DNA of 64,000 bases, taken from NCBI RefSeq assembly GCF_011059185.1, contig NZ_JAALFE010000011.1:62001-126000 (forward strand). The letters are read 5' to 3'. The notes beneath the pieces are model-generated. The model made no database searches and had not been told where the DNA came from. It worked only from the letters and a program-made list of their open reading frames with translations. How positions within the stretch are numbered: position 1 is the stretch's first letter; the number at the start of each line of letters is the position of its first letter. A program made the position numbers and the translations under genes. Source of the stretch: Paragemmobacter kunshanensis (GTDB lineage: Bacteria; Pseudomonadota; Alphaproteobacteria; Rhodobacterales; Rhodobacteraceae). Positions 45,619 to 48,686 of the stretch are shown here, in pieces.

Positions 45619-46184
45619 CGCCCGAAGCGCTTGCCGGTGGCTTTGCCCGGCCCGCGGAAGAGGCCGCGCGCGGCTTTCGCGGGCTGCTGGAGGTTCTGGC
45701 GCGGCCGGGGCTGATCCTGCGGCTGGGGGGGGCTGCGCCCCCGGCACCGCTGGGGGCCGCTGCGGGGGTGCTGGCGCTGGTGCTGCTCGACCGGACGACG
45801 CCGGTCCATCTGGCGGGGGGGCATGATTGCCCCGACCTGCGCGACTGGCTGGCCTTTCACTGCGGCGCGCCGCTGGTCGGGGCAGAGGAGGCGGCCTTCG
45901 CCTTTGGCCGCTGGGAGGATCTGCACCCTGTCGCGCGCTTTGCCATCGGCACGCCCGACTATCCCGACCGGGCGGCCACGCTGGTGATCGATTGCCCGCG
46001 GCTGGAGGCAGAGGGCGCGCGCCTGCGCGGCCCGGGCATTCGCGGCGAGGCGCGGCTGTCGCTGCCCGAGATCGCCGCCTTCCGCGCCAACCGGGCGCGG
46101 TTCCCGCTGGGGTTTGATGCCTTTCTGACCTGTGGCGACCGGATCGCCGGCCTGCCCCGATCAACCCGCGTGGAGGACGTCTGA
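45615..46184 (+). CDS. phnH: C-P lyase subunit PhnH
   Basis: 189-aa PhnH. Family features: FRGLLEVLARPG near the N-terminus, LLDRTTPVHL, FGRWEDLHPVA and the C-terminal PLGFDAFLTCGDRIAGLPRS. Coupled to phnG (ATGA overlap) and to phnI (TGATG). Confidence 0.93.
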   Translation: MTPEALAGGFARPAEEAARGFRGLLEVLARPGLILRLGGAAPPAPLGAAAGVLALVLLDRTTPVHLAGGHDCPDLRDWLAFHCGAPLVGAEEAAFAFGRWEDLHPVARFAIGTPDYPDRAATLVIDCPRLEAEGARLRGPGIRGEARLSLPEIAAFRANRARFPLGFDAFLTCGDRIAGLPRSTRVEDV

Positions 46185-47278
46185 TGTATGTCGCGGTGAA
46201 GGGTGGCGAGCGGGCCATCGACAATGCCCATGCCCTGCTGGCCGAGGCGCGGCGCGGCGATCCGGGCGTGGCGGAACTGACGGTCGCGCAGATCCGCGCA
46301 CAACTGCACCTGGCGGTGACGCGCGTCATGGCCGAGGGCAGCCTGCATGATCCGGATCTGGCGGCGCTGGCCATCAAGCAGGCCCGGGGCGATCTGATCG
46401 AGGCGATCTTCCTGATCCGCGCCTATCGGACCACCCTGCCCCGGCTTGGCGCGTCGCAGCCGATCGACACCGCCGCGATGCGGCTGATGCGCCGGATCAG
46501 CGCCACCTTCAAGGATGTGCCGGGTGGCCAGATGCTGGGGCCGACCTTCGACTATACCCACCGGCTGCTGGATTTCCGGCTGGCCGCCGATGGCCCCGGC
46601 GCCGTTCCCCCCTCTGATACCCCGCGTGCCATGGCGGCGGCGGGGCCGGTGCCGCATGTGGCGGCACTGCTGGAGCGGGACGATCTGATCGAAGGCGCAC
46701 CCCGCGACGACACGCCGCCGCCCGATTTGACGCGGATGCCGATGGAACTGCCCGCGACACGGGCGCTGCGGTTGCAGGCGCTGGCGCGGGGGGATGAGGG
46801 GTTCCTGCTGTCGCTCGCCTATTCGACGCAGCGCGGCTATGGCCGCACCCATGCTTTTGTGGGCGAATTGCGCATCGGTTGGGTGGATGTCGCGATGGAG
46901 ATCCCGGAACTGGGCCTTGCCGTGACCATCGGCGAGGTGGAGGTGACGGAATGCGAGACGGTCAACCAGTTTCTGGGATCGCGCGGCGCGCCGCCCCGGT
47001 TTACCCGGGGCTACGGGCTGACCTTTGGCCAGACCGAGCGGAAGGCCATCGCCATGAGCCTGGTGGACCGTGCGCTGCGCTGGAAGGAATTGGGCGAGGA
47101 TGGCACCGGTGCCCCGGCGCAGGACGAGGAATTCGTGCTGATGCATGCCGACAATGTGCAGGCGACGGGCTTTCTGGAACATATCAAGCTGCCCCATTAC
47201 GTGGATTTCCAGAGCGAGCTTGAACTGCTGCGCAGGCTGCGGGCCGAAACGGCCGCAGAGCCGGAGGCGGCGGAATGA
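46184..47278 (+). CDS. phnI: C-P lyase subunit PhnI (nucleosidase)
   Basis: 364-aa PhnI, which with PhnG, PhnH and PhnL swaps the adenine of ATP for the phosphonate. Conserved blocks MYVAVKGGERAIDNAH, EAIFLIRAYRTTLPR, FLLSLAYSTQRGYGRTH and the C-terminal HIKLPHYVDFQSEL. Its stop codon lies in ATGA; normally phnJ would follow at once, but here a 529-bp segment with an inverted repeat and a DUF559 gene intervenes. Confidence 0.94.
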   Translation: MYVAVKGGERAIDNAHALLAEARRGDPGVAELTVAQIRAQLHLAVTRVMAEGSLHDPDLAALAIKQARGDLIEAIFLIRAYRTTLPRLGASQPIDTAAMRLMRRISATFKDVPGGQMLGPTFDYTHRLLDFRLAADGPGAVPPSDTPRAMAAAGPVPHVAALLERDDLIEGAPRDDTPPPDLTRMPMELPATRALRLQALARGDEGFLLSLAYSTQRGYGRTHAFVGELRIGWVDVAMEIPELGLAVTIGEVEVTECETVNQFLGSRGAPPRFTRGYGLTFGQTERKAIAMSLVDRALRWKELGEDGTGAPAQDEEFVLMHADNVQATGFLEHIKLPHYVDFQSELELLRRLRAETAAEPEAAE

Positions 47279-47310
47279 GATGCGTCACCCCCTCCTCGGC
47301 GACGTGCGCC

Positions 47311-47459
47311 ACCCCCTCCCCGACCCTCCCCCGTTCCGGGGGAGGGAGAGTCTGGCCTGCGATCACCCGGGGCGCGCTTCACATGACGTTAACCCTGACA
47401 TGCGAAAGCCTGGCCTGCACACTCCCTCCCCCGGAACGGGGGAGGGTCGGGGAGGGGGT
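47311..47459. repeat. Perfect 38-bp inverted repeat upstream of the DUF559 gene
   Basis: Arms at 47311-47348 and 47422-47459 are exact reverse complements over 38 bp, separated by 73 bp. Each arm also contains its own palindrome CTCCCCC-GTTCC-GGGGGAG. Runs like CCCTCCCCGACCCTCCCCC are unlike any other spacer here. The spacer begins and ends with a CTGGCCTGC direct repeat. The right arm ends 7 bases before the DUF559 start codon, so gene and palindrome look like one unit. Confidence 0.92.
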
Positions 47460-47466
47460 ATCCGGG

Positions 47467-47811
47467 ATGCCGGCCTATCGCAACGACAGCCAGCGTTTGC
47501 ATGCCCGCGCCCTGCGCGCGTCGATGACCCCGGCGGAGCAGGCCCTGTGGCAGGCCCTGCGGAGCCATCGCTTCCATGGGCTTGCGGTGCGCAGGCAGGC
47601 CCCGGTGGGGCCCTGGATCGTGGATTTCCTGATCCCTGCCCATCGCTTCGCGATCGACCTGATCGACGAGACCCATGACCGCGCAGCGGATCGGGCCCCG
47701 GCATCGGGCCTTGCCCTTCTGGGATATCGCTGTCTGCACCTGCCGCCCCGCGATGTGCTGGGCGACCTTCCCGCAACCCTGCGACGCCTTGCAAGGGAGA
47801 TCACCGCATGA
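47467..47811 (+). CDS. DUF559 (Vsr-like endonuclease fold) protein
   Basis: 114-aa protein of the DUF559 family (YcjD-like), relatives of Vsr-type endonucleases. Family blocks: ARALRASMTPAEQALWQALR, FHGLAVRRQAPVGPWIVDFL, and a C-terminal LLGYRCLHLPPRDVLGDLP. The usual catalytic stretch VxEVDGxxH reads IDLIDETHD, and the region after it is a few residues short, so activity is doubtful. It sits between phnI and phnJ, with its stop overlapping the phnJ ATG, so the operon stays translationally connected. Not a phosphonate enzyme; probably cargo or driver of the palindromic repeat. Confidence 0.85.
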   Translation: MPAYRNDSQRLHARALRASMTPAEQALWQALRSHRFHGLAVRRQAPVGPWIVDFLIPAHRFAIDLIDETHDRAADRAPASGLALLGYRCLHLPPRDVLGDLPATLRRLAREITA

Positions 47812-48686
47812 CCGGGCCGGGCTACAACTTCGCCTATCTGGACGAAGGGACAAAACGCATGATCCGCCGCGCCATCCTGAAGGGGATCGCTGTTCCGGGC
47901 TATCAGGTACCCTTTTCAGCGCGGGAGATGCCCATGCCCTATGGCTGGGGCACCGGCGGGGTGCAGGTGACGGCGGCCTGTCTCTTGCCCGAGGACCGGC
48001 TGAAGGTAATCGACCAGGGGGCGGATGACACCACCAACGCCGTCTCGATCCGGCGGTTCTTCGAACGCACCGCGCATGTTGCCACCACCACCTCTACCAC
48101 CGCGGCGACGGTGATCCAGACCCGCCACCGCATTCCGGAACATCCGCTGCGCGAGGGGCAGATCCTGGTCTTCCAGGTCCCGATCCCCGAACCCCTGCGC
48201 TTTCTGGAACCACGCGAGACCGAGACGCGCAGGATGCACAGCCTGGAGGAATACGGCCTGATGCATGTGAAGCTCTATGAAGACATCGCCCGGCATGGCA
48301 CCATCGCCACCTCCTATGCCTATCCGGTGCGGGTGGAGGGGCGCTATGTCATGGATCCCTCGCCCATCCCGAAATTCGACAATCCCCGGCTGTCGGACTG
48401 CGCGGCGATCCAGCTTTTCGGGGCGGGGCGCGAGCAGCGCATCTATGCGCTGCCGCCCCATACGCAGGTGGTGAGCCTGGATTTCGAGGATCACCCCTTC
48501 GATCCCGGCAAGGCCCCGCATGACTGCGACCTCTGCGGTGCGGTGGACAGTTATCTGGACGAGGTGATCACCGATGACCGGGGCGGGCGGATGTTCGTCT
48601 GTTCCGATACGGATCACTGCACGTGCCGCCGGGCGGCGGGGCATTCGGGGCGGTTGGCCGCACCCCTGCCCGCGGGGAGGGCGTGA
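47808..48686 (+). CDS. phnJ: C-P lyase catalytic subunit PhnJ
   Basis: 292-aa radical SAM-type enzyme that breaks the carbon-phosphorus bond. Core blocks YNFAYLDEGTKRMIRRAIL, PMPYGWGTGGVQVTAACL and DTTNAVSIRRFF. Near the C-terminus the four cysteines are intact in the spacing CDLC ... FVCSDTDHC: three for the 4Fe-4S cluster and one for the thiyl radical. Reading frame undisturbed despite the upstream insertion. Confidence 0.95.
   Translation: MTGPGYNFAYLDEGTKRMIRRAILKGIAVPGYQVPFSAREMPMPYGWGTGGVQVTAACLLPEDRLKVIDQGADDTTNAVSIRRFFERTAHVATTTSTTAATVIQTRHRIPEHPLREGQILVFQVPIPEPLRFLEPRETETRRMHSLEEYGLMHVKLYEDIARHGTIATSYAYPVRVEGRYVMDPSPIPKFDNPRLSDCAAIQLFGAGREQRIYALPPHTQVVSLDFEDHPFDPGKAPHDCDLCGAVDSYLDEVITDDRGGRMFVCSDTDHCTCRRAAGHSGRLAAPLPAGRA

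Follow-up and report, generated by a model that had tools for sequence, protein, structure and literature searches.

Between phnI and phnJ of Paragemmobacter kunshanensis, in a 64,000-nucleotide stretch of contig NZ_JAALFE010000011.1 (the window; contig C13 of the 4.46-Mb genome G000), lies a small gene of the DUF559 family preceded by two inverted copies of a repeat that resembles both repetitive extragenic palindromes (REPs) and the BoxC element. We consider it probable, at roughly 0.6, that DUF559 genes and the repeats known as BoxC, PIT elements or triplex motifs constitute a single two-part system, one that resembles REP doublets forming hairpins (REPINs) and their REP-associated tyrosine transposases (RAYTs) but uses an unrelated enzyme. 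Direct support comes from the proximity of gene and repeats, the inverted pairing of the flanking repeats, co-occurrence across genomes, the presence or absence of cassettes and repeat pairs in relatives, and the predicted fold of the protein. From these patterns taken together, we infer that the DUF559 protein mobilizes the repeats.

Positions are those of the 64,000-nucleotide stretch, and all genes, frames and ATGA overlaps described in it are on the forward strand. The phnI gene (46184–47278; PF05861, E 8.4e-159) ends inside an ATGA (47275–47278) in which its TGA stop overlaps the ATG of a long DUF559 frame, and phnJ (47808–48686; PF06007, E 6.4e-140) begins 529 bp after that stop, at a second ATGA (47808–47811) where the DUF559 stop overlaps the phnJ start. 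The first 32 bp of the insert are followed by a REP-like repeat, a spacer of 73 nt (47349–47421), the repeat inverted, and the DUF559 gene. The outer repeat copy, which is the left arm of a 38-bp inverted repeat (47311–47348), has its hairpin at 47324–47346 and its third-strand side towards phnI. The inner copy, the right arm (47422–47459), has its hairpin at 47424–47446, followed by TCG and then by GGGAGGGGG (47450–47458), which is the exact mirror of the purine arm GGGGGAGGG. A first-pass annotation of the window had described a perfect 38-bp inverted repeat with nested palindromes and a DUF559 gene at this place, and all of these were confirmed: the arms are complementary at 38 of 38 positions (extendable to 41 nt at 98%), each contains a nested perfect 10-bp hairpin, and the protein matches PF04480 at 63 bits against a cut-off of 20.6. 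With up to three mismatches allowed, the hairpin pattern occurs twice in the window, compared with 0.04 expected per shuffled window. The same annotation gave the gene a 114-residue product and a stop over the phnJ start. The overlap holds, and the gene length is refined: the 114-residue form starts at 47467 (47467–47811), and the frame is open for 178 residues from ATGA to ATGA (47275–47811), crossing both repeats. No repeat lies downstream of the DUF559 gene in the window.

A link between DUF559 genes and C/G-run palindromes in other bacteria, which the first-pass annotation had put forward, is borne out by two sets of loci found with DUF559 protein queries that contained no hairpin. The first has one locus per genome from 60 of the 66 alphaproteobacterial genomes with a strong DUF559 match (E up to 1e-20) in a class sample of 289. 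A hairpin lies within 300 bp on either side of the gene at 54 of these 60 loci and on both sides at 30, with a density of 2.96 versus 0.052 per kb, or 57 times the background; at three loci, less than 300 bp was available on one side. Six genomes were left out of this set, and the loci of five of them (not G291) were inspected separately; among the left-out loci, L006 has no perfect hairpin. The second set is the best 80 of 569 confirmed loci, which by record title are mostly from Alpha-, Beta-, Gamma- and Deltaproteobacteria with a few from other phyla (for example a Dehalococcoidia and two cyanobacterial records) and may overlap in organisms with the first. Once poly-N hairpins were removed and a pyrimidine filter applied, a pyrimidine-run hairpin lies within 300 bp of the gene at 58 of the 80 (63 before this treatment) and on both sides at 35, and hairpin density is 2.39 per kb near DUF559 compared with 0.056 per kb beyond 1 kb. 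Among 293 control open reading frames in the same loci, 27 have a hairpin on either side and none has hairpins on both; random placement produced both-sided hairpins at no more than 4 of the 80 loci in 1000 trials.

The two hairpins of a locus also resemble each other. For 80 elements with both hairpins, taken from the two sets, the reverse-complemented upstream repeat scored 0.52 against its own downstream partner and 0.24 against those of other elements; the best of 5000 permutations gave 0.284, direct orientation gave 0.26, and the own partner was the best match in 36 of the 80. By these scores, the hairpins flanking a DUF559 gene are inverted copies of one another. Several DUF559 proteins extend into the downstream repeat, their C terminus being translated repeat.

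The DUF559-flanking repeats resemble an element with a long history. BoxC, the PIT element and the TM-ECO intrastrand triplex motif share the pattern 5'-CCCTCNCCCN3-6GGGNGAGGGN3GGGNGAGGG-3' (PMC4666352). According to that paper, BoxC-type repeats were first recognized in Escherichia coli in the 1990s, more than 260 genomes contain them, and they have been connected with genome instability; in E. coli, the motif is associated with variable loci (PMC4666352). All three strands of the motif can be recognized in the window's inner arm, namely a C-arm, a G-arm and a third strand formed by a further G-run, and the arm departs from the pattern at a single third-strand position. Across 256 repeats close to DUF559 genes, the third strand is a better mirror of its own arm than of the arms of other elements, at 5.48 of 9 positions against no more than 5.14 in 500 permutations, which is a small effect; at least seven of nine positions match in 105 of the 256, compared with 81 of 256 (5.13 of 9) for the unmirrored sequence. 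Its authors found that mobility genes were missing from the neighborhood of the motif and that the flanking genes had no function in common, and the words "DUF", "Vsr" and "endonuclease" are absent from the main text of the paper, which to that extent does not contain the DUF559 pairing (PMC4666352). Among the matches listed in searches of open-access text on DUF559, Vsr and such repeats, no paper ties DUF559 to these repeats.

The DUF559 gene of E. coli K-12 is ycjD (1351407–1351760), and one such hairpin lies 167 bp downstream of it. PMC4666352 lists 23 TM-ECO/BoxC motifs, and this hairpin is their copy 9 (1351204–1351239); by our own arithmetic, chance alone would put one of 23 copies no further than 200 bp from a particular 354-bp gene with a probability of about 0.004. 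We found ycjD in 3365 of 5426 E. coli genomes, and a 111-bp query taken at this hairpin had matches in 5376 of the 5426, where the median number of places was 19. When 60 records were drawn at even steps (59 chromosomes and one plasmid), the 37 chromosomes with the ycjD-side sequence had 15–32 places (median 21), whereas the 22 without it had 2–25 (median 5). Two strains that have the fabI-side match alone carry TetR and efflux genes beside fabI instead.

At the genome level, the repeats are dispersed, as the REP-like unit proposed in the first-pass annotation would lead one to expect. P. kunshanensis has 42 exact matches to CCCTCYCCCN{3,10}GGGRGAGGG (the hairpin pattern, not the full 38-bp arm) and none to a reversed control pattern, and 41 tallied repeat positions include 8 close pairs. 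Counting exact copies in the same way across the class sample, we found at least three in 48 of the 66 strong-DUF559 genomes and in 19 of the 223 remaining ones (Fisher 2e-24 with an odds ratio of 29, ignoring descent); among genomes with weak matches alone (E above 1e-10), 2 of 22 have at least three. Within the genus, the genomes that carry DUF559 at the phn site have 42, 6, 24, 29, 20, 26, 51 and 3 copies and the non-carriers 6, 1, 0, 5, 3, 1, 16, 0, 5, 4 and 3 (p 0.005 after subtracting two copies per carrier). Two of the non-carriers, G001 and G014, have another DUF559 elsewhere in the genome. Four independent pairs can be formed on an rpoB tree (2–3 of which differ) and five on a phnI tree (3–5 differ), all in the expected direction.

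A second site records the coming and going of a cassette between relatives; gene names other than those of the phn site are read from translations here and below. In the genus of G299, two inverted repeats and a DUF559 gene stand between putative carA and carB, an architecture like that of the window. G073 has a clearly different unit there with near-identical flanks, the unit is missing from G328, G325, G201 and G327, and in G326 the flanks lie apart. The G328 joint retains a 36-bp stretch in which 30 positions agree with the final part of the G299 DUF559 gene (none of 2000 shuffles was as good). This remnant shows that G328 has lost its carAB unit and counts in favor of a two-part system. 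The G325 joint has no significant remnant (572 of 2000 shuffles were as good), and the carA–carB joint of G201 and G327 is 7 bp. A repeat pair of about 130 bp is dispersed in G299, G073 and G328, which gave 93, 73 and 87 match rows respectively (a count that includes flank matches and takes in many copies on both strands), and not in the other four genomes, which have 3–8 rows; the presence of pairs in G328 without the carAB unit fits recent loss. Along 12 kb of G299 with six pairs (five located by script and one by eye), three are missing from G073, a fourth is present there by half, a fifth is replaced by another repeat type and the sixth is shared. Repeat pairs and cassettes thus come and go between related species, and DUF559 is a candidate for what moves them. 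The shared pair has an extra 28-bp insertion in one hairpin loop in G073 (L281).

At the phn site, the genus sample comprises 19 genomes, with phnI found in 18. DUF559 lies at the phnI–phnJ joint in eight (in G013, only the DUF559–phnJ side is visible, at a contig start), in nine of the 18 the two genes join directly through a clean ATGA overlap of 4 bp, and G009 has an unrelated sequence of about 320 bp instead. Empty joints of the kind that the first-pass annotation had proposed looking for therefore exist at phnI–phnJ, and carA–carB joints without the unit exist as well. Its suggestion that ATGA, which is indeed present at both junctions of the window, might be a 4-bp target duplication is not supported: ATGA is the phnI–phnJ coupling overlap in relatives, unrelated genes in other genera begin at the same ATGA, and the carA–carB insertion lacks a clean duplication. 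In three loci from other genera of the family (L048, L051 and L054), a gene read as a haloacid dehalogenase (HAD)-type hydrolase starts at the phnI–phnJ ATGA; this joint accepts unrelated genes.

All seven complete inserts keep the frame open from ATGA to ATGA, and their length differences are multiples of three. The inner repeat is recognizable in all seven, though degenerate in L009 and L013; the outer repeat is of another type in L012 and L014, and its hairpin is gone in L011 and L013. Translation of the L013 gene likely starts upstream, because there is no ATG or GTG where the short form would begin. Both arms of L009 and L010 carry the same loop change relative to the window (GTTCC to GTGCC), so the arms of this repeat change in concert. 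The insert is scattered on phnI trees, with six changes, at least four of them forced by well-supported branches, and an rpoB tree of 14 genomes forces four. The DUF559 tree of the eight carriers is congruent with their phnI tree. Ratios of nonsynonymous to synonymous substitution (dN/dS) are 0.16–0.47 for the DUF559 part (28 pairs; 0.16–0.36 within two clades), with dS high in many pairs, and 0.06–0.24 for phnI (7 pairs). We conclude that the phn-site unit stems from one or two old insertions followed by vertical descent and several scarless losses, and that its DUF559 gene has stayed intact and coupled in translation, with purifying selection on the protein. Selection for ATGA coupling may account for the scarless losses, or replacement by recombination may.

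The window protein has a predicted Vsr-type, I-Bth0305I-like fold, in agreement with the fold named in the first-pass annotation. Among structures with a known mobile role, the nearest is that of the homing endonuclease I-Bth0305I (3r3p); NGO0050 (structure 3hrl), E. coli YcjD and Caulobacter VsrA are of the same family or predicted fold. The EDxHD enzyme I-Bth0305I is described as having DNA-binding extensions (PMC3943268), for which a DUF559 protein of about 115 residues would leave no room. An active-site-like motif that we defined from our own alignments, not from Pfam, E-x-DG-x-x-H, is present in 76 of 76 stop-free proteins of one set and 59 of 60 of the other; the window protein has DLIDETH in its place.

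We envisage a two-part system in which a small nuclease gene of Vsr/homing-endonuclease fold, mostly in one or few copies per genome, lies beside or between inverted copies of a repeat, with like repeats, often in REPIN-like inverted pairs, scattered over the chromosome. The DUF559 protein would recognize the repeat when it is folded into a hairpin or triplex and cut there; the break would be repaired with another repeat as template, in a homing or gene-conversion-like manner, and the repeats would spread in this way. A hydrolytic nuclease of 115 residues is unlikely to join strands alone. The likeness to REPIN–RAYT systems, or REPtrons, as portrayed in the relevant parts of PMC3116915 and PMC8266576, is considerable: there, too, a gene in single or few copies lies beside inverted REPs with many REPs and REPINs dispersed, its presence tracks REP number, and it behaves as a resident gene. 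Inverted repeats beside the gene and dispersed pairs were found here, and a Y1 (HUH) transposase alongside was not. RAYT is an HUH Y1 transposase, whereas DUF559 has a predicted Vsr-type fold, and a profile search for Y1_Tnp (PF01797) found none in 34 of 43 repeat-rich DUF559 genomes (42 of the 48 with any DUF559 match and at least five repeats, plus G328), nor in 10 of the 12 genomes with at least 42 copies, P. kunshanensis among these. CGTC REPs, mostly alphaproteobacterial and said to "apparently lack a dedicated transposase" (PMC3733652), seem to be another kind of repeat. Overall, the first-pass interpretation, a REP/RAYT-like unit whose endonuclease-fold protein mobilizes or processes the palindrome, is partly supported.

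Several observations weigh against this proposal, whose weakest side is the function of the protein. The comparisons revealed no instance of cutting, excision or fresh insertion. In E. coli, lineage is a confounder of the contrast, and the low counts may stem from few lineages; in the genus, the four or five independent pairs (2–5 of which differ) do not reach significance, and the co-occurrence tests correct for descent only in part. Repeats also number 5–30 in ten genomes that have no DUF559 match, and 12 strong-DUF559 genomes are without any exact-pattern repeat, although nine of the 12 still have pyrimidine-run hairpins at the DUF559 gene. Among genus members, carriers G017 and G002 are repeat-poor and non-carrier G010 has 16 copies. 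G073 has many G299-type pairs, yet the repeats of its carAB unit are of another type. Nine of the 43 surveyed genomes do have Y1_Tnp, including G073 (92 copies) and G048 (70). Finally, the E-x-DG-x-x-H motif is missing from all eight phn-site proteins, and in G000, G005, G008, G011, G013 and G016 the sole DUF559 match is motif-less, yet the genome has 20–51 repeats, so either the motif residues are dispensable or the link between DUF559 and the repeats is not catalytic. The motif-less proteins could use other residues, they could bind without cutting, or the repeats could be spread by something else.

It is conceivable, though we think it unlikely, that DUF559 is a Vsr-like repair or structure nuclease that keeps the repeats tolerable, or a gene controlled by them, with the repeats serving as substrate or operator and not being spread by DUF559. 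The predicted Vsr fold would suit such a role, Caulobacter VsrA, a DUF559 protein, has been proposed as a mismatch-repair endonuclease (PMC12907096), and repeats persist beside genes without the usual motif. The term "palindrom" is absent from the main text of the VsrA paper, and its passages on the protein propose no role for repeats (PMC12907096). Taken alone, repair or control leaves the inverted-copy flanks and the presence and absence of cassettes and repeat pairs unexplained.

Somewhat less probable is a homing-like gene that cuts empty operon joints, here the phnI–phnJ ATGA, and is copied in by recombination, the repeats acting as ends or aids. The closeness of I-Bth0305I, the scattered presence at a single phn site and the filling of carA–carB by clearly different units in two species with near-identical flanks are all compatible with homing, as is a DUF559 stop that overlaps the start of a second gene, one read as hemW, through ATGA or GTGA as at phnJ (L250, L251 and L253). 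The agreement of the phn-site DUF559 tree with the phnI tree argues against repeated recent homing, however, and dispersed repeats without a gene would go unexplained.

We are more doubtful again that the repeats spread by other means and merely land or survive near DUF559 genes in variable regions. The association of the triplex motif with variable E. coli loci would fit such hitch-hiking, but none of the 293 control genes in the loci has hairpins on both sides where 35 of 80 DUF559 genes do, and the hairpins retained at DUF559 in nine of the 12 genomes without the exact pattern speak against it as well. That these are ordinary REPs moved by RAYT transposases with DUF559 a bystander, as the REP-like anatomy, the REPIN-like pairs and the nine Y1-bearing genomes might suggest, is largely refuted for the genomes examined by the 34 in which PF01797 was not found, and we regard it as very improbable.

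A bolder form of the two-part system, to which we give slightly less than even odds, casts DUF559 as the missing partner of BoxC/PIT repeats across bacteria. Such a system would be free of transposases: the nuclease would cut the hairpin or triplex, and repair would copy repeats and, rarely, the cassette into operon joints. YcjD of E. coli would serve as its model enzyme, and the copies at the phn site would represent a branch that was domesticated without the motif and retained as a coupled member of the phosphonate operon. DUF559 is a candidate for the enzyme behind a bacterial repeat that has been an orphan for decades, and if the proposal is true, systems of REP-type repeats have come about around two enzymes that are unrelated to each other. 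With E. coli ycjD among the members of this Pfam family, the pairing opens both questions, that of the repeat and that of the protein, to direct tests in a laboratory strain.

DUF559 loci show further variety. In two alphaproteobacterial families (L002 and L024), DUF559–hairpin units lie between genes read as ruvC and ruvA. Some DUF559 copies (L109, L114, L146 and L151) have a stop inside the matched domain. In Bradyrhizobium (L076, L111 and L121), a second type of palindrome, CGGA...TCCG, also adjoins DUF559.
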